Shown: positions 3,122-58,748 of the stretch, piece by piece
Numbering within the stretch: position 1 is the first letter of the stretch
How the letters are laid out: the number at the start of each line of letters is the position of its first letter
Assembly (NCBI RefSeq): GCF_018141545.1
Contig: NZ_CP064356.1
Coordinates: 2,989,001-3,053,000 of the forward strand
Reading direction: 5' to 3'
Source of the DNA: Miltoncostaea oceani
GTDB taxonomy: Bacteria > Actinomycetota > Thermoleophilia > Miltoncostaeales > Miltoncostaeaceae
Length of the DNA: 64,000 nt
Program-made: the position numbers and the translations under genes
Notes under the pieces: generated by a model
Told to the model about the DNA's origin: nothing
The model's database searches: none
The model's input: only the letters and a program-made list of their open reading frames with translations

Positions 3122-5234
3122 CCACGACCCAGCGGGGCCGTGACAGCACGCCCCGCCGGGGTCCGGATGTGCCGGGTCGGCGAGGCGATGTCACGACCGG
3201 CCGGCGGAGTGGGGTGGCGACGGTCCGCGGCGGCGGATCGGGACGGTCCGGCAGCGCGGCCATGCTCCCGTGGGCGGAGGTCCCGAGCGTCGGTCCGGGG
3301 TGCCGTGTCACCGCCTGCCCGGCCCAGCCGTCGGTGCGCCACAGCACCTCCGACCCGCCGAGCACGATGGCCGCCCACGCGGTCCCGCCCAGCGCGGGCC
3401 AGACGTGGAACTCGTAGGGCGGTGACCGCCGACCCGCCGTGACCTGCAGCAGGCCGCCCCGCGCGTCGGCCGCCTGCAGTCGCAGCATGTCGGTGATCTC
3501 GTGTCCGGCCTCGAGGCCGAGTCGCAGGCGCAGGAGGATGGCCCCCCAGGTGCCCTCCCCCCACACCGTGGCGGGCGGGTCGTCGTACGTGCCGGGGCTC
3601 CCCGCGTACGGCTGGTAGCCGCCGATCGGCTCGGACGTGGTGTACGTCCGGTTGTACGTCTCGGGGTCGGCCGAGAGGGCCACGGGGGCCCGCGGTGGGA
3701 CGAACTCCCCGAGGTGCGCGATCTGGCGGCGCGCGAGGTCGTCGCGTCCGATGGCCCGCAGGAAGAGCCCGCCCCACGACACGAGGTCGAGGGCGCGCGC
3801 CGTGTCGCCGACGCCCTGATCGAAGCGCTCCCGCTCCGCATCCCAGTGGTTGGTCAGCAGGCTCCGCTTGACCGCCTGCGCAGCCTCGGCGAGCCGGGCG
3901 TCGCCGAGGACGTACCCGAGGTCGCGGAGGAAGAAGTACGCGTCGATGTTGTGCTCGGTGGAGACCCACGCGATCTCCTCCGGGATGTACTCGTAGCCCG
4001 GCCCGTAACGGCCCTCGCCGCCCCGGACGCTCCCGTAGCGCGGGTCGTCGGCCGCGAACCCGTTCTCGCGCGTGACCTGACGCCCCAGCAGGTACCGGGC
4101 CAGCCCCTGCGCCAGGGGCCGGAACCGCCGGTCGCCGGTCGCGAGCTCGTACTCGACGGCCGCCGTCCCGACCCACGCGAGCGCGCCGCTCCGCACGTAG
4201 CGGTCGGCCTCGCGCCCGAGGAAGACGTCGTAGGAGAACGCCAGCGCGCCGTCGGCGCCCTGCAGCGCCGCGAGCCTCTCGAGGATGTCCGCCGCACGGT
4301 CGTGGCGCCCGGCCGCCGTCAGCGCGAGGGACGCCACGGCGGCGTCGTAGACGAACGACCGCTGCTCGAGGCGGTATCCCGAACGCCGCGTCTCGTCCCC
4401 CGAGTACCCGTAGTCCGGGTCGTCCCGGGGGATCTGGAACGACCGGGGGAGACCGCGGATCCCGGGGGCGCCGGTCCACTCGCTCGAGTTGAGGATCCTG
4501 TCGTCGCCCGTGCGCACGAGTCGCGCGATCTTCACACCGCGCCGCGCGAGGGGCGCGCGGAAGGTACCGTCGCGACGGAGGGGGACGACGGCCTGCAGGT
4601 TGTCGATGTCGGTGCGCGAGAAGACGTGGACGGCGACGCCGTCGACCGGCGGGCCGGGGCTCTCGGCCGTCGCGACGACCGCACCGTCGGCGGTCCGCGT
4701 CAACCGGGCGACCCACGCGCCGCCCGGCGGAGCCGCGGCGGGGGCGGTCGTCCAGGAACCATCGGGCTCGAGGGGATGACGCGACGGCGCGCCACCGTCG
4801 CGGGCCGCGACCTCGACGACGTACGCGAGCGGGTCCACGCCCGCCCACGTCCCGGAGAGCGGCCCCGCGTGCCCCTCGTCGTAGGAGCGGTCGAACGCCA
4901 CCCTCACCGGGGCGGGTGGTGGGACGGGGGCGAGGTCCCCGACGTCGGCGACCCGGCCCGCCACCGGCCCGACGTGGTCGACGCCGTATGCCTCGTCGAA
5001 GGTCACCGCGTACCCCTGGGAGCGGTCCTGCTGACCCTCGATCCAACCCAGGGCGCGGGTGTGGGCCTCCGCCGTCCCCTCGACGCGGGCGACCGCCGCC
5101 GAGACGTCGTCCGGGCCGGCGGGCGGCGCCGGGGAGTGCGCCAGGGCGAGACCCGGCAGCAGGACCGCGACGAGGAGCACCGCGGCGCGGCGCGCGCGAC
5201 CGGGCATGGCCGGGGACCGGGGTTCGGCGTCCAT
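3030..5234 (-). CDS. Secreted (alpha/alpha)-barrel glycoside-hydrolase-like protein
   Basis: This is a 734-residue exported protein. ATG 5234 has GAGGAC about 8 bases upstream; a second in-frame ATG at 5207 would give a shorter signal peptide. The N-terminus has a basic stretch, then AAVLLVAVLLPGLALA. Two related short motifs follow (VTFDEAYGVDHVGPVAG and VAFDRSYDEGHAGPLSG). The central 350 residues are repeated helical hairpins rich in aromatic and acidic residues, as in six-hairpin glycosidases such as the GH8/GH9-like and GH94-like folds; I cannot pick a family or the catalytic acids. It is the third gene after the GT2 synthase and galactose-oxidase-like gene. This parallels cslA-glxA-cslZ of Streptomyces, where the third gene encodes an endoglucanase-like enzyme. 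The last 90 or so residues are low-complexity Arg/Pro, and the frame runs 92 bases into the end of the converging carboxylase gene, so the true C-terminus is uncertain. Confidence 0.7.
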   Translation of the reverse strand: MDAEPRSPAMPGRARRAAVLLVAVLLPGLALAHSPAPPAGPDDVSAAVARVEGTAEAHTRALGWIEGQQDRSQGYAVTFDEAYGVDHVGPVAGRVADVGDLAPVPPPAPVRVAFDRSYDEGHAGPLSGTWAGVDPLAYVVEVAARDGGAPSRHPLEPDGSWTTAPAAAPPGGAWVARLTRTADGAVVATAESPGPPVDGVAVHVFSRTDIDNLQAVVPLRRDGTFRAPLARRGVKIARLVRTGDDRILNSSEWTGAPGIRGLPRSFQIPRDDPDYGYSGDETRRSGYRLEQRSFVYDAAVASLALTAAGRHDRAADILERLAALQGADGALAFSYDVFLGREADRYVRSGALAWVGTAAVEYELATGDRRFRPLAQGLARYLLGRQVTRENGFAADDPRYGSVRGGEGRYGPGYEYIPEEIAWVSTEHNIDAYFFLRDLGYVLGDARLAEAAQAVKRSLLTNHWDAERERFDQGVGDTARALDLVSWGGLFLRAIGRDDLARRQIAHLGEFVPPRAPVALSADPETYNRTYTTSEPIGGYQPYAGSPGTYDDPPATVWGEGTWGAILLRLRLGLEAGHEITDMLRLQAADARGGLLQVTAGRRSPPYEFHVWPALGGTAWAAIVLGGSEVLWRTDGWAGQAVTRHPGPTLGTSAHGSMAALPDRPDPPPRTVATPLRRPVVTSPRRPGTSGPRRGVLSRPRWVVATRRSRALRRPRLPAPPRRAPPSPSRPAGR

Positions 5235-5245
5235 CGCGGGTGTCC

Positions 5246-7795
5246 TCACAGCCTCCTGAGGCTCATGGCGTCCACCTGGAAGGCGTTGTTCGCCCCCGCG
5301 GCGAGCTGCATCACGTACATGTCGATGCGGTTGCCCGTCGCGCCGACGGTGGCGGTGACGGTCACGGGCGTGAAGGTGTTCGTGAGCGTGGTCGTGGCGA
5401 TGGTCTGGGCGGCCACCACGTTGTCCGGGCGCCGCTCGCGGATGACGATGCGGACGGTCTTGCCCACCGACGACCCGGCGCCGGCCCGCACCACCGCGCG
5501 CGCCTCGTAGCGGTGGCCGGCGGTCGCCGAGAGGACCGTGTCGGGGTCGTCGTCGATGCTGTAGTCGGCACCGGTCGCGCGGGCCACGCGCGCCACGGCG
5601 GCGCCGTCCGGGGCTCCCGCGACGACCTGTCGCGTGATCGTCGACCGGTAGTTGAACCAGCCCGAGGTGCCCGCCTCGAAGGACGGGTTGGGCAGGAGGT
5701 TGGCACCGGGCGCCGTCGACACCGTGACGGTCCGGGTCGCCGTGGACGCCGCCCCGTCGTCGTCGGTCACCCGCAACCGCACGACGTGGCTCCCGGCCGG
5801 GAACGTCCGGCCGGCGGTGACGGCACCGCCATCGTCGAACGCGCCGTCGTCGTCGAGGTCCCACCCGCGGGAGGCGATCGTGCCGTCCGAATCGGTGGAG
5901 GTGTCGGTGAACACGACCGTGTCCGCCGTCGTGGGGGCCGCGGGGGCCTGGGTGAAGGCGGCGCTGGGAGGCGCGTTGGTCCCACCGGGCAGCGGCGGGG
6001 CGTCGGGCGCGTTCGGGTCGAGGCGCAGCATCCGCGCGACCGAGGGGACGCCGTTGCCGTCGACCAGGAACAGCATGTAGTACCCCGGGGGCGCGAGCGT
6101 GGCGTCCGCCGGGGTGCTGAGCGTCAGCCCGTCCGCCTGTGTGGTCATCGCGAGCCGGATCGAGCGCTGGTCCATGTCGTTCGCGTGCGTCGTCGATCCT
6201 GCGCGCACGAGCACGGCGCGCGTGATCGCGGACGGCGTGCCCGTCGCCACGCGGAACCCGGCCCCGTACCGCACCGCGGTGGGTGCGAAGTCGATGGTCG
6301 GGCGGGCGCCCCGGAAGAGGTACGGCGGCTCGTAGAACTCGCCGTTGTCCGCGAACCGCGCGCCGGGGCGGTCGTCCCCGGCGGCGAGCACGCGACCGTC
6401 CGGGAGGAGGACCGCCGTCGAGTGGTACGTGCGCTCCTCGATCTGGGAGACGACGCCCCGCCACGACCCGGCGCCGGGGTCGAGGATCTCGGACTGGTAG
6501 ACGGGTCCCGCCCAGAGACCGAGGTCGTCGTCGCGACGCGACCCCCCGCCGACGGTCAGGAGCGACTCGTCGGGCAGCAGCACGGTGTTGTGGTGGGAGC
6601 GGCCGTACGCCATCGACGGGCCGGGGCTCCAGCCCGCCCCCGGGTTCGTCAGGTCGAGGACGATGGAGGAGGCCATCGCCTGCTCGCTCTCGGGCAGGTC
6701 CGTGCCACCGATCATCATGAGGCGGGTCGCCCCCCCGGGGCCGGCGGGCATGAGGACCGCACTGCCCCACACGCGGTCGGTGGGCGGGATGGGGAGCCCC
6801 TGCCACGTCCAGCTGTTCGTGTCGAGGAGGGCCGCGGTCTGGTCCGGCCCGACCTGCAGGACCTTGCCTCCCGGCACGACGAACATGTGCGGGTAGAGCT
6901 CGGTGTAGCGGCGGGCGGTGGGCTTGAGCGACAGGGTGCCGACCCCGTTCGGGTCGGCGGACGGCGTGAACACCTCCACGTCCTGGTTGATGCGGAAGAG
7001 GCCCTGCTCGTCGTAGCCGTTGTGGATCACCGCGCGGCCGTCGGGGAGCGTGGTCACCGTCGGGTACCAGCGGCCGTGGGCCATGTCGGGCTGGCGCGTC
7101 CAGGTCTCCGTGAACGGGTTGAAGGTGAAGAGGGCCCTCAGCCCCTTGTAGTCCAGCCCGTTCGCCGGGTACTCGAGGTTGCCGCCGGCGACGAGGACCC
7201 GGCCGTCGGCCAGCACCGCCTGCCCCGCGCACCAGATGTTGAAGGGCTTCCCGGTGGCCGGGTTGAGCGGCGGGTCGACCCGCCGCGACGTGCGCGTCGC
7301 CGGATCCCACACGTAGGCGGTCGCCTCGTTGCGCGTCAGGTCCGCCGTCGGGTACGCGAACATGAGCACCTTGCCCGTGGCCAGGACCACCGTGTTGATG
7401 CCGATGACCGGCAGCGGGAAGGGGTCCCCCCAGCGCCCGTCGGTGTCGACCGCGAGGGCGGCGGCGCCGTCGGGCTCGGCGAGCGCGGACGCCCCGTCCG
7501 TGCCGGCGGCCGCCGCCCGACCGCGGCGCAGCGCCGGGCACCGGCCGCGTTCGGCGGCGCGGACGACCGGGTCGTCGCATCGGGCCAGCCGCGCCGCGTC
7601 GCGGCGGGCGAACGCCTGGCGGTCGTGGAGGTGGCCGGCGAGCGCGGGCGGCTCGTACCCCCGGAGGTACTCCCGGGCCGGGAGCCCGCCGGGGGCCGCG
7701 ACGACGGGGGCCAGCGCGACCACGCCTGCGCTGGCGGTGGCGAGGACCAGGCCGGCCGCCGCGCGGCGGTGCCTGAGGCGGTTGCGTCTCATCAT
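5246..7795 (-). CDS. GlxA-like copper radical oxidase with PKD and carbohydrate-binding-like domains
   Basis: This is an 849-residue secreted protein with an N-terminal signal anchor (basic, then AAAGLVLATASAGVVALAP). Residues about 120-600 form a Kelch-type galactose oxidase domain. By motif comparison with galactose oxidase (Cys228-Tyr272, Tyr495, His496, His581), the ligands are present: Cys189 in NIWCAGQ, Tyr244 in GRWYPTVT, Tyr457-His458 in ERTYHSTAV and His537 in STTHANDMDQR. It should therefore form the Cys-Tyr cofactor and oxidise a primary alcohol to an aldehyde, giving H2O2. A PKD domain (about 610-700) and a beta-sandwich module starting NPSFEAGTSGWFNY (about 703-849) follow; the Streptomyces GlxA I know of lacks these. 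ATG 7795 overlaps the stop of the GT2 gene (ATGA). The natural substrate is probably the glycan made by that synthase. Confidence 0.88.
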   Translation of the reverse strand: MMRRNRLRHRRAAAGLVLATASAGVVALAPVVAAPGGLPAREYLRGYEPPALAGHLHDRQAFARRDAARLARCDDPVVRAAERGRCPALRRGRAAAAGTDGASALAEPDGAAALAVDTDGRWGDPFPLPVIGINTVVLATGKVLMFAYPTADLTRNEATAYVWDPATRTSRRVDPPLNPATGKPFNIWCAGQAVLADGRVLVAGGNLEYPANGLDYKGLRALFTFNPFTETWTRQPDMAHGRWYPTVTTLPDGRAVIHNGYDEQGLFRINQDVEVFTPSADPNGVGTLSLKPTARRYTELYPHMFVVPGGKVLQVGPDQTAALLDTNSWTWQGLPIPPTDRVWGSAVLMPAGPGGATRLMMIGGTDLPESEQAMASSIVLDLTNPGAGWSPGPSMAYGRSHHNTVLLPDESLLTVGGGSRRDDDLGLWAGPVYQSEILDPGAGSWRGVVSQIEERTYHSTAVLLPDGRVLAAGDDRPGARFADNGEFYEPPYLFRGARPTIDFAPTAVRYGAGFRVATGTPSAITRAVLVRAGSTTHANDMDQRSIRLAMTTQADGLTLSTPADATLAPPGYYMLFLVDGNGVPSVARMLRLDPNAPDAPPLPGGTNAPPSAAFTQAPAAPTTADTVVFTDTSTDSDGTIASRGWDLDDDGAFDDGGAVTAGRTFPAGSHVVRLRVTDDDGAASTATRTVTVSTAPGANLLPNPSFEAGTSGWFNYRSTITRQVVAGAPDGAAVARVARATGADYSIDDDPDTVLSATAGHRYEARAVVRAGAGSSVGKTVRIVIRERRPDNVVAAQTIATTTLTNTFTPVTVTATVGATGNRIDMYVMQLAAGANNAFQVDAMSLRRL

Positions 7796-8949
7796 CTCCT
7801 CGGTTCCGGAGCGGGGATCGCCGGCGCCGACGCCACGGGCTCGAGCGCCAGACGGCGCCACCGCCGGCGCACGAGCGTCGGGTAGCGGTAGCGCCCCCAG
7901 TGGCCGGTGCTGCGCACGAGCCTCACGTAGCGCGCGACGCCGAAGGCCGGCATCAGCAGCACCTGGGCCAGGCTGTAGTAGGGGAACAGCACCATCCAGG
8001 AGGTGCGCACCGGCCAGTTGCACACCACGATCAGTGCCGTGTAGATCAGGATCACGGCCGGGACGAGCTGGTAGTCGTCGACGCCGGAGACCAGCTTCCC
8101 CGTCAGCAGCAACCAGACGAGGACGATGTTGTAGGTCCAGTAGACCGGGAAGCGCAGGTTCTTGTCGAAGTTCACGAAGGCGGAGCGGAACGACCCGCAC
8201 CACCATCCGGTCCGCTGGCGGATCAGCTCCCGGAACGTCGGGGGGACCTCGGTGTAGACCGTGAGGTCCACGTGCGCGACGCGCAGGCCGAGGCACTTCG
8301 CGATCTTCCCGACCTCGATGTCCTCGCCGTAGAAGTAGTTCGAGTGGTGCCGCATGATCGCCCGCAGCGCATCGGTGCGCGCCAGCGTGATCGCCCCGCT
8401 CGTCATCCACGGCCGGTGGTGGCGTCCGCGCATCGCGAGCGCGTACTCGATGGCCTGCATGTGCTCGGCCACGGTCTCGCGCCGGTCGGGGAGCACCTTC
8501 GCGCTGCACAGGTCGACGCCCTCGCGCTCCATCGCGGCGACCGCGCGCCCGACGTCCTGCTTCGTCCACGTGTCGCCGTCGAGCCGGATCGCGTAGCGGG
8601 TGGTGACGCGCCCGAGCGCGACGGTGAGCATGTCCATCGGCGAGTGGGCGGACGCCACGGGGACCCGCTCCACCCGCCACCCCTGCCATTCGCAGCCGTT
8701 GGCGAACCGTCGCATCGCCTTCGTGGTGGTGTTCACCACGAGGACGACGTTGCCGCGGTGCCGCTGCAGGTACTCCCGGTTGCAGAAGTAGCGCGGGTCG
8801 CCGTAGAGCGGCACGAGGATCGTGAAGTCGTCGCTGCGCTCGTCCGCGAGCCCGAGGGCCGGGCGGAGGCACGTCACGATGTTCTCCGCGTCGAGGAGGG
8901 CCAGCAGGGGGATCATCAGCGCCCCCGCGAGGAGCAGCTCGTCGGTCAC
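7792..8949 (-). CDS. CslA-like family 2 processive glycosyltransferase (membrane)
   Basis: This 385-residue membrane glycosyltransferase probably polymerises a beta-linked glycan and moves it across the membrane. It has one N-terminal membrane segment, a GT2 domain with DGDTW (Asp124/Asp126, metal and UDP-sugar binding), GEDIEV (Glu209-Asp210, catalytic base region), and three or four membrane segments after about residue 262. The processivity motif QxxRW appears as QRTGW (245-249), with Gly in place of Arg. GTG 8949 overlaps the stop of the small membrane gene upstream (GTGA), and the stop overlaps the start of the copper oxidase gene. Pairing with a GlxA-like oxidase is the hallmark of the Streptomyces cslA-glxA system. 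Cellulose, hyaluronan-like or other beta-glycan products are all possible. Confidence 0.85.
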   Translation of the reverse strand: MTDELLLAGALMIPLLALLDAENIVTCLRPALGLADERSDDFTILVPLYGDPRYFCNREYLQRHRGNVVLVVNTTTKAMRRFANGCEWQGWRVERVPVASAHSPMDMLTVALGRVTTRYAIRLDGDTWTKQDVGRAVAAMEREGVDLCSAKVLPDRRETVAEHMQAIEYALAMRGRHHRPWMTSGAITLARTDALRAIMRHHSNYFYGEDIEVGKIAKCLGLRVAHVDLTVYTEVPPTFRELIRQRTGWWCGSFRSAFVNFDKNLRFPVYWTYNIVLVWLLLTGKLVSGVDDYQLVPAVILIYTALIVVCNWPVRTSWMVLFPYYSLAQVLLMPAFGVARYVRLVRSTGHWGRYRYPTLVRRRWRRLALEPVASAPAIPAPEPRR

Positions 8950-19770: not shown

Positions 19771-21108
19771 TCAGCCCGTGACCGCCGGCTGGACGCGGGC
19801 GGCGAGCGGACGGAACGTCGTCCGTGCGCGCGCGCTCCGGTTGCGGACGTTGGCGCCGCTGACGGTCGCCACGTTGACGCGGGCACCGCGGACGTTCGAC
19901 GTCGCGCGCATCCACACGTTGATCGTGCGGGAGGCGCCCGGCGCGAGGTTGCCGAGCCGGACGACGACGGCGCCGTTGCGGATCGACGCGGTCCTGCTGG
20001 CGCGGACGAACGCGAGGCCGCCCGGGACGCGGTCCCGGATGACAACGGCGGTCGCCGTGCGCTTCGTCGTGTTCTTCACCGTGATCCGGTACCGGACGAG
20101 ACGCAGGACCTGCGCCCTGGCCGGGGCCGACTTGGTGATCGTGAGGTTGAGCTTCGCCGGGGCGCCGGTCGTGCCGCCGCCGGGGGTGGTCGGGGTGCCG
20201 GGCGTCCCGGAGGTGCCCGGGGTGGTCGTCGCCCCCGTGAACGTGGCGGCGGCGGACGCGGTCAGGACGGTCGGCACGGCGTGCACGGTCGCCTGGCTGC
20301 GGTCGAGCGGGGCCGTCCGGTACAGGCGGCCGTCGCCGGCCGTGCCGGCGCCGACGGTGACCTGGCCGGGACCCGCGGCGGTCAGGGTGGCCGTGGCCGT
20401 CCCGTCCGCGCCGATGGTGACCTGACCGGCCGAGAGGGTGCCGGAGCCCGCGGTCACCGTGAGGGTGACGACGGCGCCGGGGCGACCCGTGACCGTGACG
20501 GTGGAGCTGGTGGCGCCGGCCGCCGGCGCGGCGACCGTGAGGCCGAGCGAGGCGGGCGTGGCGGCGGCCGCGCGGGCGGCGGCCACGAGGGCGGCGACCT
20601 CGGCGTTGAACGCCGCGTCGCTGCTCGGGCCGTCCTCGCGGAGGTCCCCGTCGAGGACCCAGGTCGCGACCTGGCCGACGGCCGCCTGGTTCCGCTTCGC
20701 GGCGGTCGGCGGGCCGGTGACGGCCGAGTTCAGGACGACGTAGGCGATGGCCCGTGCCTGGACGGTGTCGAGGGGGACCTCGACGACGTCCGCCTGGACG
20801 GTGCCGGTGTTCAGGCCCGTCCGCGCGTCGACGCAGAACGCCACCACGGGGGTGCCGTTGAACGTCAGGTTGATGGTGCCGGCCTGGCCCACCGGCGGCG
20901 AGGCGTCCGACCCGTCGGGGTAGAAGAAGTCGTCGATGTCCGAGCGGTAGATGTCCGGCGTCGGACCATCATCCTGCCCGGTGTACGTCTGGGTCTGGAC
21001 GACGGCGGCCGCAGGCGACGCCTGCAGCGCGAGGATCCCCGCGAGGAGGACGATGAGGGCGAGGACCCCCCTCAGGAGGAGTGGTCTCCCGCCCATGTGG
21101 TGCGTCAT
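19771..21108 (-). CDS. Thioester-forming surface adhesin (Cys-Gln) with DUF11-like domain
   Basis: This is a 445-residue secreted protein. ATG 21108 has GGAGGT about 8 bases upstream and begins a good signal peptide (LLLRGVLALIVLLAGILALQASPAAA). An in-frame ATG at 21168 is also preceded by TAGAGT and 6 bases, so a 20-residue longer leaderless form is possible. The N-terminal domain has the two thioester-domain motifs: VVAFCVDARTG (Cys92) and AVGQVATWVL (Gln146). By family knowledge these two side chains form an internal thioester that captures amines on host or neighbouring surfaces. An Ala-rich Ig-like domain, a Thr/Pro/Gly linker and a DUF11-like domain (LNLTITKSAPARAQ...YRITVKN) follow. 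I see no LPXTG motif or terminal membrane anchor, so the attachment mode is unknown. Confidence 0.78.
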   Translation of the reverse strand: MTHHMGGRPLLLRGVLALIVLLAGILALQASPAAAVVQTQTYTGQDDGPTPDIYRSDIDDFFYPDGSDASPPVGQAGTINLTFNGTPVVAFCVDARTGLNTGTVQADVVEVPLDTVQARAIAYVVLNSAVTGPPTAAKRNQAAVGQVATWVLDGDLREDGPSSDAAFNAEVAALVAAARAAAATPASLGLTVAAPAAGATSSTVTVTGRPGAVVTLTVTAGSGTLSAGQVTIGADGTATATLTAAGPGQVTVGAGTAGDGRLYRTAPLDRSQATVHAVPTVLTASAAATFTGATTTPGTSGTPGTPTTPGGGTTGAPAKLNLTITKSAPARAQVLRLVRYRITVKNTTKRTATAVVIRDRVPGGLAFVRASRTASIRNGAVVVRLGNLAPGASRTINVWMRATSNVRGARVNVATVSGANVRNRSARARTTFRPLAARVQPAVTG

Positions 21109-21174
21109 CAGATCGACCTCCAAGGTGGTCTGATCGGTTTCAGCCGGGCCCATCGGACCCGGTGGCATCTCGGC

Positions 21175-21270: not shown

Positions 21271-22758
21271 TCAGAAACGCGCGATGGTCTTGGTGCGCAC
21301 GAGGCTCGTCGTGTTGTTCTTCACCACGAGCCGCACGGTGACCTTCTTGCCCTTCCAGGCCTTCGGGATCTTGACCGTCCTGGAGACCGACTTCGGGCCG
21401 GCGACGCCGGAGCCCCTGACGACCTTGCGGACCGTCTTCCTGCCGAGCTTGGTGCTGAGCGTGGCCGTGTACTTCACGCGCCCCGTGCCGTTGAGCCAGA
21501 CGACGTTGAGCTTCAGGGTGCTCTTCTTCGCGTTCTTGACGACGCCGAACCGCTTCAGGCCGAGCGTGAGCGCCTGCGGCGTCACGACCGGCGGGTTCAC
21601 CGGCGGGGCCACGACCGGCGGGGCGACGACGGGCGGGGTGACGACGGGCGGGACCACCGGGGCGGCCGCGTCGGCGGCGCCGACCTTCAGCTGCCAGCCG
21701 GCGAGGGTGCCGGTGTCGACGCCGACGGTGTCCTGGACCGAGAGCGTCCAGACGCCGTTCGGGTCCATGCCGCGGAACGCCGCGAGGGCGCCCTCGGGCA
21801 CGACCGCGCCGGCGGCGTCGGTCGCGTTGTTGACCAGCAGCGTCGCCGAGTCGTCGAAGGTGCGGTTGGTGTAGAACGGCGTCCCGCCACCGGCCCGCGA
21901 CGCGATGAGCACCGAGCGCCCGGAGTGCGAGAGCCGGATGACCAGGTCGTCGGACACGGGGTGGCTGATGTTGGTCACCAGGTCCAGGTCGGTCAGGTAC
22001 GTCTTGGCGCCGCTCACGGTGAGCGACGACACGAGCGGGCCCCCGGGCGCGTCCGGGATCGGCTGCGCGCCGGCGGAGCTCGACGCGGTGATCGTCGGGG
22101 CGACGGCCGGCGCCGCGTCCTGGGTGGCGAGGTCGAGCGACCAGCTGGCGAGGGTGCCGCCGTCGGGGTCGACGGTCGCGACGTCGTCCTTGGTGTCCGT
22201 GACCCGGAGGGTCCACGTGCCCCGCGGGTCGATGCCGACGAACCGGCCGAGGGAGCCCTCGGGCGTCAGGTCCGCCTGGGGCGCGTCCTCGCCGAGCAGG
22301 GCGGCCGTCAGGTCGCTCGCCGGGGTGAGGGACGAGTCGTCCCAGAGGGTGTTGCTGAAGACGTTGTCGGTGCCGCCGGCGCCGTTCGTGCCGCCGTCGA
22401 TCAGCGTCACGGTGCGGGCGGGCTGCCCGGGGCGCGCCGGCGACGTCAGGGTGATCTCGAGGTCCCCGGACCCGCTGTGCGTGATGAACGTGCGCACGTC
22501 GACGTCGCGCAGGTACGACTGCGCCGACTCGGGGACGGTGATGGTGGACACGGCCGCGGGCGCGGTCGCGAGGGGGCCGATGGCCTTGTTGTTCTGCGCC
22601 GCGGTGCTGCTCGCGGTGAGGGCGGCGCCGTTGGCGCCCCCGGTCGGTGCCGGAGCCACGGCCAAGGCCCGCTCGGTCATCGTCAGCGCACCGACGCCGA
22701 GCACCGCGAGCGCGCTGCCCACGGCCAGGCTCCGTCCCAGGTGGTCTCGAACCGTCAT
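21271..22758 (-). CDS. Secreted protein with two proprotein-convertase P-domains and a Lys-rich C-terminal domain
   Basis: This is a 495-residue exported protein; the N-terminus (SLAVGSALAVLGVGALTMTERALA) is a signal peptide and CGGAG lies upstream of ATG 22758. Two P/Homo B-type jelly-roll domains are visible at about 65-210 and 225-365. Each has the pattern D(L/V)xIxLxxP, a GxWTLxVxD strand and a late GTLxxWxL strand. P-domains normally accompany proteases, but no catalytic domain is present here, so these are likely binding domains. A Pro/Val linker built on PPVV repeats leads to a beta-rich C-terminal domain with about 17 lysines in 95 residues, unusual in this Arg-favouring genome. It could be a substrate for the lysyl-oxidase-like protein encoded at 55440-58592. 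Confidence 0.75.
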   Translation of the reverse strand: MTVRDHLGRSLAVGSALAVLGVGALTMTERALAVAPAPTGGANGAALTASSTAAQNNKAIGPLATAPAAVSTITVPESAQSYLRDVDVRTFITHSGSGDLEITLTSPARPGQPARTVTLIDGGTNGAGGTDNVFSNTLWDDSSLTPASDLTAALLGEDAPQADLTPEGSLGRFVGIDPRGTWTLRVTDTKDDVATVDPDGGTLASWSLDLATQDAAPAVAPTITASSSAGAQPIPDAPGGPLVSSLTVSGAKTYLTDLDLVTNISHPVSDDLVIRLSHSGRSVLIASRAGGGTPFYTNRTFDDSATLLVNNATDAAGAVVPEGALAAFRGMDPNGVWTLSVQDTVGVDTGTLAGWQLKVGAADAAAPVVPPVVTPPVVAPPVVAPPVNPPVVTPQALTLGLKRFGVVKNAKKSTLKLNVVWLNGTGRVKYTATLSTKLGRKTVRKVVRGSGVAGPKSVSRTVKIPKAWKGKKVTVRLVVKNNTTSLVRTKTIARF

Positions 22759-23932: not shown

Positions 23933-25609
23933 TCACCCGAGGGTCCGCGACAGGCGGATGAACAGGGACTTGCCGCCCGACGCGGGCTTCAGGCCGGCGG
24001 TGATCGCCACCTTCGACCCGCGGGGCACGCCCGACACGTCGAAGCGGCACGACACCGACTTGCCCTGCACCACGACCTTGCGGCACTGGCCGAGGCGCTG
24101 CGACCCGTGACGCGCGGCCATGGTCACCTCGCCGCCGACCTTGGAGCGGACGCCGAGGACGAGCGGCCCGCCGGCGGCCCAGGTGGCCTGGGCCGACAGG
24201 GTGCTCGCCTGCGGGACCTTCCGCGCCAGGCGCACGCGGACGCCCTTCGCCTTCTTGCTCAGCGGGTCGAGGCTCGCGGCGACGACCACCGGCAGCGCGC
24301 GGTTCGCGCGGCGGACCGAGAACCGGCACTTCACGGCGGTGTTGCGCGCCGCGCGGCGGGTGCAGGCACCGAGGATGGTCGACCCGGACCGGGGGACGAT
24401 CTTCACGCGGCCGGCGAGGCGGGTGCGCGCCGACACGACGAAGGTGTCACCGGATAACCACGAGATCGAGAGGCGCAGCGTCCGCAGCGCGCGCAGGGCG
24501 GGGGCGGACAGGGCCGGCGCCGACGCGGCGGGCGGCGTCGCGCCGCCGCCGGAACCCGAGGACCCACCGGGCACCGACGTGGGGCCCTTGCCGGCGCACG
24601 GGCTGCCGGCACGCAGCGAGAAGTCCTTCGCGGCGCGGTTCGTGAACAGCGGGTCGGCGACGATGTTGTTCGACACCGAGAAGCCGCGCTGGTTCTGGAC
24701 GTTGCCCTCGGCGCCGTTCCAGAGGCAGTTGCCGTCGGCGCGGTTGCCGGAGCCGACGGGGCCGCCCCAGTAGGACTCGACGTTGGCCGTGTCCTTGGAG
24801 TTGCTGATGATGTTGTTCACCACGACGTTGTTGCTCGAGGCGGTCGAGCCCTCGCCGGAGAACGTGATCCCGCGGCCGTTGCCGTCGATCACGTTGTTCG
24901 CGACGTAGGTGCCCTGCGCGTCGGGGTAGAGGTGCACCCCGTAGTCGGCGTTGTCGTAGATGTAGTTGTTCGTGATGCGCACGTTGCGCGTCGTGTTCAG
25001 GTAGATCCCGTGGTCGAACCCGGTCGCCGGCAGGCGCCCGCACCCGTGGATGCGGTTGCCGTCGATGACGATGTCCTCGGCCACCCCCTCACCGGGCTTG
25101 CCCAGGTGGAAGCAGATGCCGTGGTTGTCGTCCGTGACCTCGTTGTTCGAGAACGTGATCCGGTCGCCGTTGACGCTCGGGTTGACCCGGAACGACGTGC
25201 GGCCGTTGATGATCAGGTTGGTGTAGACGATGTCCGTCGCGCCGTCCGGCACGTAGATCTCGCCGAGGAGCGTCGCCCGGCCCTCGCCGGGGCCACTCGT
25301 GATGGTGACGGGGTTCCCGGGCCGGCCGCTGCGGTTCGCGCGGAGGCGCTCGGAGAACGTGGTGCCGGGCTGGAGGCACCCGACCTCGCCGGGGGCGAGG
25401 CTGTCGAAGAGGCGCTGCGCCGTCCGGTAGGGGGACGACGCGGATCCGGAGGCGGAGTCGCTGCCACCCGAGGCGGCGTATCGCGTGCACGCCGGTGCGG
25501 CGGAGGCGATGTCGGGGGTCTGTGCGACGAAGAGCAGGGCGAGCGTTCCCAGCAGTGCGACGACGGCGACGCGGAGCGTGGGAAGGGAGAGCCGGGCCCC
25601 ATGGGGCAA
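23933..25609 (-). CDS. Secreted right-handed parallel beta-helix protein A
   Basis: This is a 558-residue exported protein. I chose TTG 25609 because GAAAGGA sits 7 bases upstream and translation then begins with a signal peptide (VAVVALLGTLALLFVAQ...ASA). Residues about 40-340 form a pectate-lyase-like beta-helix: repeated NNxIxxN and ITNNYIYDNADYGVHLY ladders and the N-terminal ACTRYAASGGSDSASG motif typical of these proteins. The C-terminal 190 residues hold two copies of a 95-residue beta domain, each with a cysteine pair (GAC...VKCRF and GQC...VSCRF). It may bind or cleave a uronic-acid-containing polymer. It is a more distant paralogue of the two proteins at 37350 and 39089. Confidence 0.78.
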   Translation of the reverse strand: MPHGARLSLPTLRVAVVALLGTLALLFVAQTPDIASAAPACTRYAASGGSDSASGSASSPYRTAQRLFDSLAPGEVGCLQPGTTFSERLRANRSGRPGNPVTITSGPGEGRATLLGEIYVPDGATDIVYTNLIINGRTSFRVNPSVNGDRITFSNNEVTDDNHGICFHLGKPGEGVAEDIVIDGNRIHGCGRLPATGFDHGIYLNTTRNVRITNNYIYDNADYGVHLYPDAQGTYVANNVIDGNGRGITFSGEGSTASSNNVVVNNIISNSKDTANVESYWGGPVGSGNRADGNCLWNGAEGNVQNQRGFSVSNNIVADPLFTNRAAKDFSLRAGSPCAGKGPTSVPGGSSGSGGGATPPAASAPALSAPALRALRTLRLSISWLSGDTFVVSARTRLAGRVKIVPRSGSTILGACTRRAARNTAVKCRFSVRRANRALPVVVAASLDPLSKKAKGVRVRLARKVPQASTLSAQATWAAGGPLVLGVRSKVGGEVTMAARHGSQRLGQCRKVVVQGKSVSCRFDVSGVPRGSKVAITAGLKPASGGKSLFIRLSRTLG

Positions 25610-25758
25610 GACGGCGTCCTTTCGGTGGGCACGTAGCAATCGGCGCGACGTACGACGGCGGAGTGGGCACTCACCCCTTGCCGATCGCGTCACCTGGAGC
25701 GGCTGGGACGCCGGTCCGGTGCATGCCGCGCGGTCATGCCTTTCGATTGGAGGGCAGG

Positions 25759-38900: not shown

Positions 38901-38914
38901 GAGGTCTTCCTCCG
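37885..38914. repeat. Direct repeat, copy 1 of a 1.03-kb nearly identical segment
   Basis: This segment matches 40695-41724 at an offset of 2810 bases. I see differences at only two positions (37897 and 38863) on visual comparison. It covers the ribosome site, signal peptide and beta-helix of the gene at 37350-38900. Confidence 0.85.
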
Positions 38915-39041
38915 TGAAGATCGCGAGGGCCCTGTCGGGGCGACGCTCTGACCGCTTGCCGGCCCGCGCCGGGCACTCCCCGGACCACTCGTTGCGTACC
39001 CCTTCATCGGGTCCGCGGGGGAGCGTCTTGAGACCCCCGGG

Positions 39042-39078
39042 CCACCGCGTCGCCCCCCGGGGGGTGGCGACGCGGTGG
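39042..39078 (-). terminator. Terminator of beta-helix gene C
   Basis: A perfect 13-base stem (39042-39054 with 39066-39078) lies 10 bases after the stop codon at 39089. The loop itself is a C-run facing a G-run. Confidence 0.75.
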
Positions 39079-39088
39079 CGGGTGGGGC

Positions 39089-41710
39089 TCAGCGCGTGAG
39101 GGTGACGGCGTCCATGTAGAACGCGTCGCCGCTGACGGCGCCGGCCTGGCCGACGTAGACCTCGATCTGGTTGCCCGAGGCCTGGGCGGTGAGGCTGCCG
39201 GTGACCGGGGCGAACGTGCCGCCCAGCGTCACCGTGGGACCGGCGACGGTCCGCAGGATGGTGCCGGCGGCCGAGCGCTCGCGGAGGTAGAGCTTCACCT
39301 GCTTGCCGGTGGCCGAGGCCGTGGCGGCCCTCACCATCGCGCGGCCGGTGTAGAGCGCGCCGCCGGTGGCCGAGGTCACCGAGGTCGGGGCGTCATCGAC
39401 CGTGAACGCGGTGCCCGTCGTCTGGGCGACCCGGGCGACGTAGGAGCCCGCCGGGGCGTCGGCGAGGGCGACGCGGGTGAGACCCGCCTGCCAGGTGGTC
39501 CACCCCGTCACGCCCGACTCGAACGAGCCGTTGGCGACGGAGTCGCTGCCACCGGTGCTCGGCGGCGGGGCGGGGACGACCGGGGCCGCCGTGACGCTCA
39601 GCGTGCGGCTGGTCGTCGAGGAGGCGCCGTCGTCGTCGGTGACGCGCAGGCCGACCGTGACGTCACCGGCGCTGGCGTAGCTGCGGGTCGCGGTCGCGCC
39701 CGTCGCGTCGTCGTAGGCGCCGTCGCCGTCGAGGTCCCAGGCGCGGGAGGCGATGGTGCCGTCCGCGTCGGTGGAGGAGTCGGTGAACGTGACCGCCACG
39801 CCCGTCTGCGGGGCGAGGCTGCTCGCCGTGAACGACGCCGCCGGGGCCGTGTTGGCCGGGGGCGGGGGCGGGGGCGGGGTGGTGGTGGAGCCGGTGCCGA
39901 GGGTGACGGCGTCCATGTAGAACGCGTCCCCGGCGGCCGCGGCGGACTGGCCGACGTAGACCTCGATCTGGTTGCCGGTCGCCTGGGCCGTCAGCGTCGC
40001 CGTGACGGGGCCGAAGCCCGAGCCGAGCGTGGCGACGGGGCTCGCGACGGTCCGCAGGGTGGTGCCGGCGGCCGAGCGCTCGCGGAGGTAGAGCTTCACC
40101 TGCTTGCCGGTGGCCGAGGCCGTGGCGGCCCTCACCATCGCGCGGCCGGTGTAGAGCGCGCCGCCGGTGGCCGAGGTCACCGAGGTCGGGGCGTCATCGA
40201 CCGTGAACGCGGTGCCCGTCGTCTGGGCGACCCGGGCGACGTAGGAGCCCGCCGGGGCGTCGGCGAGGGCGACGCGGGTGAGGCCCGCCTGCCAGGTGGT
40301 CCACCCCGTCACGCCCGACTCGAACGAGCCGTTGGCGACGGAGTCGCTGCCACCGGTGCTCGGCGGCGGGGCGGGGACGACCGGGGCCGCCGTGACGCTC
40401 AGCGTGCGGCTGGTCGTCGAGGAGGCGCCGTCGTCGTCGGTGACGCGCAGGCCGACCGTGACGTCACCGGCGCTGGCGTAGCTGCGGGTCGCGGTCGCGC
40501 CCGTCGCGTCGTCGTAGGCGCCGTCGCCGTCGAGGTCCCAGGCGCGGGAGGCGATGGTGCCGTCCGCGTCGGTGGAGGAGTCGGTGAACGTGACCGCCAC
40601 GCCCGTCTGCGGGGCGAGGCTGCTCGCCGTGAACGACGCCGCGGGGGCGACGTTCGACGCGGGGGGCGGCGCGGGGACCGTCGTGCCCGTCGTCGGGACC
40701 TTGCCGATGCAGGGGCTGCCGGCGCGGAGGGTGAAGTCCTTGGCGGCCCGGTTCGTGAACATCGGGTCGGCGGTGATGTTGTCGGAGGCGGTGAAGCCAC
40801 CGTTGGAGAGGTTCACGTTGCCGGTGCGGCCGTTGAACATGCAGTTGCGGTCGGCGCGGTTGCCGACACCGACACCCGACGCCCACCACGACTCGACGTT
40901 GCTCTTGACCAGCGAGTTGCTGATCACGTTGTTCTCGACGAGGTTGTTGCTCGACACCAGGCCACCCTCACCCGAGAACGTCACCCCACGGCCGTTGCCG
41001 TCGATGACGTTGTTGGCGACGTAGGTGCGGTTCGCCCCCGGGTACAGGTGCACCCCGTAGTCGGCGTTGTCGAAGATCAGGTTGTTGGTGATGCGGGTGT
41101 CGTAGGCGTGGTTGACGTAGATGCCGTGGTCGAAGCCGGTCGCCGGCATCCGCCCGCACCGGAAGATCCGGTTCGAGTCGACGACCACCCCGTAGGCGAT
41201 CCCCGACCCGATGTTCGAGCCGATGTGCAGGCAGATCGCGGTGTTGTCGTTGGTGATGTCGTTGTTGCGGAACACCACCCGGTCACCCTGGACGTCGGGG
41301 CTGACCCGGGCGCCGGAGGTCCGGCCGTTGATCACCAGGCCGTCGAAGACGACGTCGTTGGCGGCCTCGGGGACCCATGTCTTGCCGAGGATCGTCGCCT
41401 TCGCCCCACCGGGGGCGGTGGTGAGGGTGATGCCGCTGCGGTTCACCTTCACGCCACCGAACGTCGCCCCCGGCTGGAGGCACCCGACCTGACCCGAGCT
41501 CAGTGAGTCCACGAGCTTCTGGGAGGTGCGGAACGGGGCGGACTCGGTGCCGGCGGCGGAGTCGCTGCCGGACAGGGACGCGTACTTGGTGCACGCGGGT
41601 GCCGCGGCGGCGGGCGACGCCGGCGCGAGGGCCACGAGGGCGACGGCCGCCAACGCGGCACCGGCGACCCACGCCGGCAACGCGCGACGGACAGGACGGG
41701 CACGGACCAT
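39089..41710 (-). CDS. Secreted parallel beta-helix protein C with two PKD + binding-module pairs
   Basis: This 873-residue exported protein shares its first 340 residues (signal peptide and beta-helix) with protein B. After the PCIGK motif it carries PKD (about 352-440), a beta-sandwich module starting NGSFESGVTGWTTWQ (about 450-600), a second PKD and a second module of the same kind. The two PKD/module pairs are nearly identical at the DNA level (offset 801 bases). The same module ends the GlxA-like oxidase and occurs twice in the lysyl-oxidase-like protein, which suggests all three bind one shared matrix. GGAGGA precedes ATG 41710. Beta-helix enzymes of this type are often polysaccharide lyases, but I cannot identify catalytic residues. 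Confidence 0.78.
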   Translation of the reverse strand: MVRARPVRRALPAWVAGAALAAVALVALAPASPAAAAPACTKYASLSGSDSAAGTESAPFRTSQKLVDSLSSGQVGCLQPGATFGGVKVNRSGITLTTAPGGAKATILGKTWVPEAANDVVFDGLVINGRTSGARVSPDVQGDRVVFRNNDITNDNTAICLHIGSNIGSGIAYGVVVDSNRIFRCGRMPATGFDHGIYVNHAYDTRITNNLIFDNADYGVHLYPGANRTYVANNVIDGNGRGVTFSGEGGLVSSNNLVENNVISNSLVKSNVESWWASGVGVGNRADRNCMFNGRTGNVNLSNGGFTASDNITADPMFTNRAAKDFTLRAGSPCIGKVPTTGTTVPAPPPASNVAPAASFTASSLAPQTGVAVTFTDSSTDADGTIASRAWDLDGDGAYDDATGATATRSYASAGDVTVGLRVTDDDGASSTTSRTLSVTAAPVVPAPPPSTGGSDSVANGSFESGVTGWTTWQAGLTRVALADAPAGSYVARVAQTTGTAFTVDDAPTSVTSATGGALYTGRAMVRAATASATGKQVKLYLRERSAAGTTLRTVASPVATLGSGFGPVTATLTAQATGNQIEVYVGQSAAAAGDAFYMDAVTLGTGSTTTPPPPPPPANTAPAASFTASSLAPQTGVAVTFTDSSTDADGTIASRAWDLDGDGAYDDATGATATRSYASAGDVTVGLRVTDDDGASSTTSRTLSVTAAPVVPAPPPSTGGSDSVANGSFESGVTGWTTWQAGLTRVALADAPAGSYVARVAQTTGTAFTVDDAPTSVTSATGGALYTGRAMVRAATASATGKQVKLYLRERSAAGTILRTVAGPTVTLGGTFAPVTGSLTAQASGNQIEVYVGQAGAVSGDAFYMDAVTLTR
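39243..39840. repeat. Internal tandem repeat, copy 1 (PKD + binding module)
   Basis: This stretch matches 40044-40641 at an offset of 801 bases with very few differences. The outer 150 bases of each unit have diverged more. Confidence 0.8.
40044..40641. repeat. Internal tandem repeat, copy 2 (PKD + binding module)
   Basis: Partner of 39243-39840. Both lie inside the same gene and keep the reading frame, since 801 is divisible by three. Confidence 0.8.
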
Positions 41711-55439: not shown

Positions 55440-58400
55440 TCAGTCGGTCCTCAGCTGCGCGTCGTCGATGTAGACCGCCATCCCGGTGACCGCCTGCTTG
55501 GTGCTGTAGTAGACCTCGAGCTGGTTGCCCGCGGCGAGCGGGGCCAGATCGGCGGTCGCGACCTGGAAGCTGTTCGTCAGGACGACCGTCGGTCCTGCGA
55601 AGTTGCGCAGGACGGTACCGGACGGGTTGCGCTCGCGGAAGAACAGCTCGAACGGCTTGCCCACCGCCGAGCTGGTGGCCGCGCGGACCGCCACGCGGGC
55701 GTGGTAGGTCGTCGCGACGGTCGAGGTGACGGTGGTCGGCGCGTCGTCGAGCGTGAACGCCGTCCCCGTGGTGCGCGTCACCTTCACGGCCCAGCTGCCC
55801 GCGGGGGTGCCGGCCACCTGCTCGCGGGCGAGGCTCGCCTGCCACGTGGTCCATCCCGTCAGGTTCGTCTCGAACGAGCCGTTCGCGATCAGGTTCGTGC
55901 CGCCCGGCGGCGCCGACGAGACCGTCAGCGTCCGCGACGCGATCGTCTCGGCGGCGTCGTCGTCGGTGACGCGGATGCGCACCGTGACCGGGCCGGCGGT
56001 GGTGTAGGCGCGGGACGCCGTGGCGCCGGTGCCGTCGTCGAAGCCGTCGCCGTCGAGGTCCCAGGCGCGGGCGGTGATCGTGCCGTCGGAGTCGGTGGAC
56101 GTGTCGGTGAACGTCACGGTCGCGCCGACGAGCGGGGTGAGCGTGCTCGCGTCGAAGGAGGCGACCGGCGGCGTGTTCGACGGCGTGGTCGCCGACACGG
56201 TGAGCGTCCGCGACGCGATGGTCTCGGCGGCGTCGTCGTCGGTGACACGCAGGCGCACCGTCACCGGGCCGGCGGTGGTGTAGACCCGCGAGGCGGTGGT
56301 GCCGGTGCCGTCGTCGAAGCCGTCGCCGTCGAGGTCCCATGCGCGGGCGGTGATCGTGCCGTCGGAGTCGGTGGACGTGTCGGTGAACGTGACCGTCGCC
56401 CCCGTCTGCGGGGTGAGGGTGCTCGCGTCGAACGAGGCGACGGGCGGCGTGTTCGCCGGCGCCGACGAGGTCACGGTGACGGTGCGGGTGCCGATCGCGC
56501 TGGCGCCGTCGTCGTCGGTGACCCGGATGCGCGCCGTGACGGTGCCGGGGGCGGTGTAGGTCCACGTCGCCGTCTGGCCGGTGCCGTCGTCGAAGGCGCC
56601 GTCGCCGTCGAGGTCCCAGGCGCGCGCCGCGATGGTGCCGTCCTCGTCCGTGGAGTTGTCGCTGAACGTGACCTGCTGGCCGACCGTCGGGTTGAGGGTG
56701 TTCGCACCGAAGGAGGCGGTCGGGGGCTGGTTGCCGCCCTGGCCGTTCGTCAGGGAGACGGCGTCCACGTAGAACGCGCTGCCCGCGACGGCGTTCAGGT
56801 GCGCGAGGTAGATCTCGATCCGGTTGCCCGCCGCCTGCGGCGAGACCTGGGCGCTGACCCGCTGGAAGCTGTCGGTCAGCGTCACGGTCGGGCCGCTGAT
56901 GGTGCGCAGCACGGCGCCGGAGGCGCTCCGCTCGCGCAGGTGCACCCGCACCGTCGCGCCGAGCGACGCGGTGGCCGCCGACTTCACGTACGCGGCGCCG
57001 GTGTAGGTGGTCCCGGCCGTCGCGTTGGTGACCGAGTCGGGTGTGTCGTCGAGGGTGAACGAGGTCCCGGCGGTGCGGGCGACGCGGGCGACGGTGACGC
57101 CGAGGGGCGCGTCGGCGAGCTGCACCCGGGAGAGGCTGGCCTGCCAGGTGGTCCAGTTGGTGAGGTTCGTCTCGAAGGAGCCGTTGGCGACGAAGTTGGT
57201 GCCGGGGTCCGGCGCGGGGTCGACGGGGCCCGGGTCCACGATCTGGATGGACACCTCGTCGAAGGCCGTCGGGACCGCGGTGCTGGTGGCGCGGATCGTG
57301 ACCGCGCCGCCCGCGGGCACGGTGGCGGGGGCGACGTACAGCCCGGCGGTCGTGATGGTGCCGACGGTGGCGTTGCCGCCCGTGACGCCGTTGACCGCCC
57401 AGGTGACGCCGGGCGAGCCGTTCAGGACGGTGGCGGTGAGCTGCGCGCTCGTGCCCTTGTTGAGGGTCGCGGGGGCGCCGGAGATCGCGACGGTCGTCTC
57501 CACCGGGGCGGTGCCGACGGTCAGGGTGACCGCGGCGGCGGCCGGGGTGCGCGGGAACTGGCTGGTCGAGTCGAGGGCCGTGTAGGTGAAGGTGTCGGGG
57601 CCGCTCGCGCCGCCGTTCGGGGTGTAGGTGACGGTGTCGCCCGTGATCGTCGAGCCGACGGCGAGCACGGTGGTGCCGCTGCGCAGCACCCCGTTGGCCG
57701 GGAGGCTCGCGATGCGGAAGCGCCGGGCGCCGGGGCTGCCGAACGTCTGCGACCTCAGGGTGATGGTGGACGCCTGCGCCGCGGGGAGCGTCCCGGCGTT
57801 GACGGCCTGGGCGCGGTAGCCCGGGATGGTCGTGTCGGCGGCGGCGAAGGCGACGGTGTTGTTCGCCTCGCTCGCCTCCTGGATCACGTTGTCCGTGTCG
57901 ATCTCGGCGCCGAGGCGGTACACGCCCGGCTGGACGTCGGAGACGTCCACCCACTGCATCGCGAGGCTCGCGCCGTACCGGTCCCGCCACCCGGCGGAGA
58001 TGCCGGTGGTCAGGCTCGTCGCCGACGGGTTGCCCTGGTTGCAGAAGTTGAGGTTCTCGTAGACCGGGTTCGCGGGGCCGGTGGTCTCACGGCGCTGCGT
58101 GTCCTCGAGGCAGAAGCCGACCTTCTGACCCGGGGCGACCTCGGCCGTGCGGGCCTGGTTCCACAGCGAGTAGCGGGCGATCTTCTGCAGGTGGAAGTGG
58201 TTGTGGCCGTCCTGCGTCTCGTACAGGATCCGCGGGTACTTGCCGGCCGTCGGCGGGTCGGTCGCCTGCATGCCCGAGGGCGTCTGGACGTACTGCCGCG
58301 TCGTCTGGAACTCCGCCCCGCTGCGGTTCGAGCCGCGCACCTCGAGGGGCCCGGGGCCGATGTTGTGCACGTAGCCGTCGAAGCGCAGCAGCAGGGACTG

Positions 58401-58592
58401 CGAGGCGTCCGGGAACGTGTGCTGCTCGAGCGCCGGGAAGGCCGGCGGATCGGCGACCAGGTCGGGGAGCACGGCCCCGCTGGGGACGGCCCCGCCCACG
58501 ATGGGCAGCGCGACGGCGAGGCTCGCGGCGGCGGCGAGCAGGAGGGGGATGACGCGGCGTCGGGTTCTCACCCACGAAGGATCCCACGACAC
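55440..58592 (-). CDS. Secreted lysyl-oxidase-domain protein with three PKD and two binding modules
   Basis: This is a 1050-residue exported protein. After a signal (VIPLLLAAAASLAVALPIVGG), residues about 35-225 form a lysyl oxidase (Cu, PF01186-type) domain: LRFDGYVHNIGPGPLEV, the copper-binding His cluster in DGHNHFHLQ (about 129-134), and WVDVSDVQPGVYRL. Lysyl oxidases convert Lys side chains to aldehydes. Next come a cadherin-like domain (about 240-335), a Big-like domain (to 430), a module starting NGSFETNLTNWTTWQ, three PKD domains (about 600-885), and a second copy of the module. The start (GTG 58592, or GTG about 20 bases further in) has no clear ribosome site. The lysine tyrosylquinone cofactor cannot be confirmed by eye. 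Confidence 0.85.
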   Translation of the reverse strand: MSWDPSWVRTRRRVIPLLLAAAASLAVALPIVGGAVPSGAVLPDLVADPPAFPALEQHTFPDASQSLLLRFDGYVHNIGPGPLEVRGSNRSGAEFQTTRQYVQTPSGMQATDPPTAGKYPRILYETQDGHNHFHLQKIARYSLWNQARTAEVAPGQKVGFCLEDTQRRETTGPANPVYENLNFCNQGNPSATSLTTGISAGWRDRYGASLAMQWVDVSDVQPGVYRLGAEIDTDNVIQEASEANNTVAFAAADTTIPGYRAQAVNAGTLPAAQASTITLRSQTFGSPGARRFRIASLPANGVLRSGTTVLAVGSTITGDTVTYTPNGGASGPDTFTYTALDSTSQFPRTPAAAAVTLTVGTAPVETTVAISGAPATLNKGTSAQLTATVLNGSPGVTWAVNGVTGGNATVGTITTAGLYVAPATVPAGGAVTIRATSTAVPTAFDEVSIQIVDPGPVDPAPDPGTNFVANGSFETNLTNWTTWQASLSRVQLADAPLGVTVARVARTAGTSFTLDDTPDSVTNATAGTTYTGAAYVKSAATASLGATVRVHLRERSASGAVLRTISGPTVTLTDSFQRVSAQVSPQAAGNRIEIYLAHLNAVAGSAFYVDAVSLTNGQGGNQPPTASFGANTLNPTVGQQVTFSDNSTDEDGTIAARAWDLDGDGAFDDGTGQTATWTYTAPGTVTARIRVTDDDGASAIGTRTVTVTSSAPANTPPVASFDASTLTPQTGATVTFTDTSTDSDGTITARAWDLDGDGFDDGTGTTASRVYTTAGPVTVRLRVTDDDAAETIASRTLTVSATTPSNTPPVASFDASTLTPLVGATVTFTDTSTDSDGTITARAWDLDGDGFDDGTGATASRAYTTAGPVTVRIRVTDDDAAETIASRTLTVSSAPPGGTNLIANGSFETNLTGWTTWQASLAREQVAGTPAGSWAVKVTRTTGTAFTLDDAPTTVTSTVATTYHARVAVRAATSSAVGKPFELFFRERNPSGTVLRNFAGPTVVLTNSFQVATADLAPLAAGNQLEVYYSTKQAVTGMAVYIDDAQLRTD

Positions 58593-58694: not shown

Positions 58695-58748
58695 CGAGGG
58701 CCTCCGAGACGGTTAGAGCTGTCGAGGTTCCAACCGAAGGAGGCCCTC

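Follow-up and report, generated by a model that had tools for sequence, protein, structure and literature searches.

Does the lysyl-oxidase-domain protein encoded close to one end of the window, the whole stretch of 64,000 nucleotides that was analysed, work jointly with a second exported copper oxidase 47.6 kb away, or does it have a task of its own? A preliminary description had proposed a pairing in which one enzyme makes aldehydes on a glycan and the other on lysines, so that polysaccharide and protein would become covalently cross-linked. Here we compared both enzymes, their shared module, the proteins encoded around them and the corresponding loci in 42 genomes of the order and 299 genomes of a class sample. 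In the reading that we favour, with a probability of roughly 0.45, the lysyl oxidase (LOX1) holds to EPS, oxidises lysines of surface proteins and stiffens the coat, and the GlxA-like oxidase is a strain-specific addition. The window covers bases 2989001-3053000 of contig 1. The features are collected in Table 1.

Table 1. Features in the window and LOX genes elsewhere in the genome (the latter given by locus).
Feature	Position	Strand	Evidence
LOX1, exported protein of 1050 aa with a lysyl oxidase domain (order: LOX, Ig-like, CBM, PKD x3, CBM)	55440..58592	-	Pfam
LOX1 catalytic core, with copper site HNHFH and the LTQ residues Lys and Tyr	57849..58235	-	Pfam, alignment, AF2 model
LOX1 CBM-like module 1 (NGSFE...WTTWQ)	56742..57206	-	Pfam, alignment, AF2 model
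LOX1 three PKD domains, bounds approximate	55914..56732	-	Pfam
LOX1 CBM-like module 2	55440..55901	-	Pfam, alignment
Beta-helix protein C, exported, right-handed; two PKD and two module copies	39089..41710	-	
Beta-helix protein A, two copies of the basic tail domain of LOX2 and LOX4	23933..25639	-	profile
P-domain exported protein, Lys-rich C-terminal ~100 aa, candidate LOX substrate	21271..22758	-	
Exported DUF11 protein, thioester-like Cys (AFCVD) and Gln (GQVATW)	19771..21123	-	
Membrane GT2 glycosyltransferase, first operon gene; DGD, GED, QRTGW; hydrophobic segments at both ends	7792..8949	-	
GlxA-like AA5 copper radical oxidase with PKD and CBM-like module; start overlaps GT2 stop (ATGA)	5246..7795	-	
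CBM-like module of GlxA-like protein	5246..5713	-	alignment, 43% identical to LOX1 module 1
Third operon gene, exported, no recognised family; C-terminal end uncertain	3030..5234	-	
LOX gene, just before window	L006 3725-5329		
LOX gene, just before window	L006 11012-12829		
LOX gene	L007 7531-9552		
LOX gene, divergent	L008 8502-10022		

By codon-position GC the LOX1 reading frame has the profile of a real gene. Pfam matched Lysyl_oxidase to residues 120-248 (60.8 bits) and CBM_4_9 to about residues 463-617 and 895-1050, with three PKD_4 domains in between. In an alignment with human LOXL2 (5ze3) all three copper histidines and the Lys and Tyr of LTQ were aligned: HNHFH corresponded to the LOXL2 copper ligands H626/H628/H630 and the LTQ pair to K653 and Y689. 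This assignment is consistent with the description of lysyl oxidases in PMC4448552. The copper histidines and the LTQ Lys and Tyr were invariant across the four strong LOX proteins of the window genome and in every covering row of 47 LOX segments from this genome and its relatives, a weak fifth LOX included. The invariant LTQ Lys carries weight because the median gene has only 0.8% Lys (107 genes called by codon-position GC in the fetched regions of the genome). The catalytic domain was modelled by AF2 on an 18-sequence alignment with a pLDDT of 93.3, and a fold search against the PDB returned two LOXL2 chains as sole matches at E <= 0.001 (5ze3, E 2.5e-9). The closest named LOX relatives are from Miltoncostaea and other Thermoleophilia MAGs, which makes a position in or near Miltoncostaeaceae probable for the genome, and the domain architecture is conserved in L042, L055/L090, G019 and L088. 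Activity of the LOX enzymes in the window genome is very probable, and LOX1 is probably directed to a glycan. An IS481-like transposase frame, seen by eye in the translation (window 58740-59711, plus strand), starts at a distance of about 150 bp on the upstream side of LOX1; it marks the LOX1 site as mobile and may influence LOX1 expression.

The shared module was searched as a profile over the whole 4.54-Mb genome, which gave seven copies in five genes: LOX1 (two), the GlxA-like gene (one), beta-helix C (two), a further beta-helix gene, sited on contig 2, and a gene for a short secreted protein. Five of the copies, in three of the genes, are inside the window. The probability that three of five randomly placed genes fall within 53 kb is about 0.004, local duplication being ignored; module sharing in the window is not chance. 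That LOX1 and the GlxA-like protein carry PKD domains and the same module, as the preliminary description had it, was borne out by Pfam and by the 43% identity between LOX1 module 1 and the GlxA-like module, for which Pfam itself gave no score. Beta-helix C had been named as a third carrier, and its two PKD domains and two modules were found. The copies are 42-63% identical to LOX1 module 1 (alignments A1, A3). Among themselves, those of the GlxA-like protein, LOX1 and beta-helix C reach no more than 43-57% identity, so that the sharing is old. The module profile had no match among PDB sequences and a fold search was used for this reason. The AF2 model (pLDDT 95.6) matched CBM16, CBM4 and CBM22 structures, best the CBM16 2zew (E 1.4e-8), and a CBM16/4/22-type sandwich is predicted for the module with confidence; all of 12 copies have W18 and Y68.

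The module occurs in 9/42 genomes of the order and 25/299 of the class sample. Fusions with LOX were found in six genomes of the order (the window genome G000, G009, G011, G016, G019 and G020), which span four genera; at least two of the six, G011 and G016, have no GlxA match. Fusion to GlxA was seen in the window genome only. In G267, a member of another family, a GH123-like protein carries three module copies; its gene and a GlxA gene 3.4 kb away are part of an EPS cluster (L128 2194-11575), beside genes resembling a Wzy-type ligase/polymerase and a flippase, and a LOX match was absent genome-wide. Thus, the module seems to direct various enzymes to polysaccharide and does not look like a signature of a LOX-GlxA pair.

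The second oxidase comprises GO-like E-set and kelch domains, one PKD domain and one module. Its start was placed at 7795 or 7792 and its end at 5246; the listed reading frame, from 8872, is longer. The best solved relative is GlxA (4unm, E 3e-52), and the alignment to 4unm demonstrated that the Cys-Tyr cofactor residues, the Tyr-His and His ligands and the second-sphere Trp are kept; copper and cofactor positions are retained in nine relatives. The score against the NCBIfam GlxA equivalog NF052501 was 255.5 bits, below the cut-off of 800, and we therefore call the protein GlxA-like and not GlxA itself. A loss of copper ligands in either oxidase domain was thus checked in the alignments to LOXL2 and 4unm and is excluded. 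Both enzymes have N-terminal export-type hydrophobic segments and intact active-site residues; they look exported, in agreement with their earlier portrayal as secreted copper oxidases, and catalytically competent. The GT2 stop and the GlxA-like start overlap as ATGA at 7792-7795, and the third gene begins 11 nt past the GlxA-like stop. The GT2 protein has 385 amino acids and was compared with the DxD, TED and QxxRW motifs of BcsA/CslA-type synthases: DGD and GED are there, and QRTGW takes the place of QxxRW; phmmer found no match in the PDB, solved cellulose synthases included, for the GT2 protein, and none in the PDB for the third gene product. The three genes as a conserved unit were rejected on the distribution of GT2 and third-gene homologues in the class sample. 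Strong GT2 homologues were present in only four other genomes, none with a GlxA match, and third-gene homologues in three, on contigs other than that of GlxA where both occur. At another locus (L130 2251-8929) only about 20 bp separate a gene homologous to the window GT2 from the next one, which encodes a subtilase with nine MBG repeats. The best reading is that the GlxA-like oxidase is a strain-specific accessory and not an obligate partner of LOX1.

A region of 75 kb is syntenic, gene by gene and inverted, with G019:590-665 kb of the sister species, including the EPS cluster and the LOX2/LOX4 locus. The main gaps on the G019 side are the GT2-GlxA-third-gene operon and LOX1. The LOX1 orthologue of G019 is sited elsewhere, 560 kb from beta-helix C and 16.6 kb from a different GlxA gene; this GlxA gene and the LOX1 orthologue are separated by a series of short genes, an integrase-like one among them (L040, G019:C1 1154-1174 kb), possibly a mobile element. 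In G009 the LOX1 orthologue is 13.5 kb from a divergent GlxA gene. The distance between LOX1 and a GlxA gene is 14-48 kb in all three genomes in which both could be placed on one contig, a suggestive but post hoc observation on GlxA genes that look non-orthologous. Around 20 named LOX loci, several of them on short contigs, there was no GlxA gene within 10 kb, and class members outside the order had no close LOX-GlxA pairs. A conserved linkage of LOX and GlxA is not supported; it was seen only within the order and with apparently non-orthologous GlxA genes.

Across the class sample GlxA (PF09118) was detected in 35 and LOX in 100 genomes. LOX was present in 20/35 GlxA genomes versus 80/264 others (Fisher p 0.002); the figures were 12/27 versus 57/230 outside the order (p 0.03) and 8/8 versus 23/34 within it (p 0.07), kinship being ignored in all three comparisons. 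Co-occurrence of LOX and GlxA across the class is weak. The pairing of the two oxidases was not supported: in the syntenic region of G019 both are missing, at least G011 and G016 have module-carrying LOX and no GlxA match, fusion of GlxA with the module was seen in the window genome only, and the class-wide association is weak. On these comparative data a dedicated partnership of LOX and GlxA is not supported, though it may exist in this strain.

What could LOX1 act upon? The Lys-rich surface protein noted in the preliminary description is exported, encoded in the EPS cluster, and Lys-rich at its tail in the sister species as well: the last 100 residues of this P-domain protein contain 17% Lys, and 19% in the G019 counterpart. 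For LOX2 the values are 18 and 14%. Two LOX proteins, LOX2 and LOX4, have a basic C-terminal domain in common with beta-helix A and the P-domain protein. The four genes lie within 34 kb, and the profile of this domain gave no further match in the window genome. Compared with G019, Lys kept versus exchanged with Arg was 14 versus 3 in the P-domain tail, 7 versus 11 in LOX2 and 0 versus 6 in LOX4. The free exchange in LOX2 and LOX4 points to charge and not to an oxidisable lysine; of the three tails, only that of the P-domain protein is conserved as if lysine mattered. The thioester adhesin that had been suggested would be the DUF11 protein of the EPS cluster, a possible thioester protein. Its thioester-like Cys and Gln are both conserved in G019; a Pfam thioester-domain match was not obtained. 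Three exported Gly-X-Y collagen-like proteins look genuine in the window genome (L112, L114, L115), one with a Lys within its triplets, which follow a Lys-rich stretch; the PF01391 matches L113 and L116 were rejected as simple-repeat frames. The first 340 residues or so hardly differ between beta-helix proteins B and C, while the C-terminal parts do (window 37350-41710); judged by this likeness they are a recent tandem duplication.

With LOX1, the LOX genes of the window genome number five, and a pair of the others precedes the window start by no more than 11 kb. LOX genes adjoin the acyl-CoA carboxylase locus by twos or threes also in G019, G010, G012 and G009. Such groups beside this locus were observed in several genera of the order (L006, L053, L051, L052, L054).

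How can these data be explained? Catalytic residues, export-type N-terminal segments, shared module and synteny are established at the level of sequence. In the favoured reading, LOX1 would belong to the bacterial lysyl oxidases and act outside the cell as a copper/LTQ amine oxidase, tethered by its CBM16/4-type modules to an extracellular polysaccharide, most likely the EPS whose cluster lies at window 11.6-37 kb. At this site it would turn amines into aldehydes, most likely those of surface-protein lysines, for example in the Lys-rich tails that LOX2 and the P-domain protein bear; the aldehydes would condense and the coat would be stiffened. The GlxA-like oxidase, as part of a GT2 polysaccharide-synthase operon, would bind the same glycan via the same module. 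The ligand of the module, lysine as substrate and the cross-linking itself are what we infer. The fact that LOX1 is not beside EPS genes in G011 or G019 counts against this scheme, and so do the free exchange of Lys and Arg in the LOX2 and LOX4 tails, the relaxed amine specificity of HTU-LOX (PMC6452851) and the identity of only about 20% between the module and CBM16. A scheme with both oxidases, in which GlxA aldehydes on the glycan and LOX aldehydes on lysines link polysaccharide to protein, appears rather improbable. The intact active sites, the same rare module on both enzymes, the 14-48 kb spacing with its reservations and the weak co-occurrence are in its favour; LOX1 orthologues with modules are found without GlxA, the operon and LOX1 are the two parts absent from the syntenic sister region, the 20 named LOX loci have no GlxA gene within 10 kb, and close pairs are confined to the order. 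Moreover, GlxA of S. lividans is required for glucan synthesis with CslA, and the word aldehyde is absent from the text of PMC11022532. Covalent coupling of glycan and protein is possible, and the aldehyde-amine link would be its chemistry.

Alternatively, the LOX proteins may be amine oxidases of wide range whose task is to use primary amines as nutrients, to detoxify them or to produce H2O2 against competitors, with the CBM only keeping them near the cell. The multiple, tandem copies in several genera and the metabolic, not EPS, neighbours of the LOX4/LOX2 locus agree with this, as does HTU-LOX, the single prokaryotic LOX for which the literature searched gave a characterisation, which has a relaxed specificity (small amines, aminoglycosides, polymyxin) and a cryptic role (PMC6452851). 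We regard it as somewhat unlikely, as the large exported CBM/PKD/Ig-like architecture better suits a fixed matrix enzyme and as the LOX proteins have domains in common with beta-helix and P-domain surface proteins. The sharing of modules might also reflect local duplication and domain shuffling among surface-protein genes and imply no joint function. PKD and CBM domains are widely shuffled in bacteria, beta-helix B and C are tandem duplicates, and the module genes are clustered in the window genome, yet in G019 LOX1 is far from beta-helix C; the age of the module copies and the retention of the module-LOX fusion in four genera make this explanation unlikely. That the collagen-like exported proteins are the real substrates, as in animals, is more doubtful still: three genuine Gly-X-Y proteins are encoded, one of them with a Lys in its triplets, but their genes are about 1 Mb away, and collagen-like proteins are common in bacteria without LOX. 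The idea was also judged unlikely in PMC4448552.

Our best reading is therefore a lineage-specific, polysaccharide-targeted bacterial LOX family, which probably acts on surface-protein lysines within an EPS coat and plausibly cross-links it. The sequence observations of the preliminary description were right, and stronger than its letters-only view allowed. The role of prokaryotic lysyl oxidases is an open question (PMC4448552, PMC6452851). In this lineage they have a predicted address, an extracellular polysaccharide, through modules that a polysaccharide-linked copper oxidase also carries; exported proteins encoded close by offer conserved Lys-rich tails in a Lys-poor genome. The role thereby becomes testable, as enzyme and binding module are defined and candidate substrates can be named. 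Matrix cross-linking, if true, would be a bacterial counterpart of the lysyl-oxidase-cured matrix of animals.

A bacterial LOX matrix system was not reported in the literature searched; bacterial LOX itself (PMC4448552, PMC6452851) and GlxA with a polysaccharide synthase (PMC11022532) have been described. In S. lividans cslA and glxA are translationally coupled and the proteins form a cellulose synthase complex (PMC11022532). The window protein resembles GlxA of Streptomyces lividans (4unm) in the Cys-Tyr, Trp, Tyr-His and His residues and in the translational coupling to a membrane GT2; it differs by the additional PKD domain and CBM module and by 255 bits against 800. A further difference is that the window GT2 is short, with no QxxRW and no detectable sequence similarity to solved cellulose synthases. 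The module has the predicted beta-sandwich of CBM16/CBM4/CBM22 (e.g. 2zew, 4bj0; Foldseek E about 1e-8; Pfam CBM_4_9) at an identity of only about 20% or less. With the LOX family (PF01186; human LOX and LOXL2; prokaryotic survey in PMC4448552) LOX1 shares the copper HxHxH, the LTQ Lys and Tyr, the fold and an export signal; the first (fourth) His is missing from it, a trait known from other LOX of bacteria (PMC4448552). Most surveyed prokaryotic LOX consist of the LOX domain alone (PMC4448552), whereas LOX1 is fused to Ig-like, PKD and CBM-type modules, and up to six copies are present per genome here. HTU-LOX of Haloterrigena turkmenica, a prokaryotic LOX homologue, has demonstrated amine oxidase activity, which for LOX1 is predicted; it has no known link to a matrix (PMC6452851), whereas LOX1 is a multi-domain protein with carbohydrate-binding-type modules.
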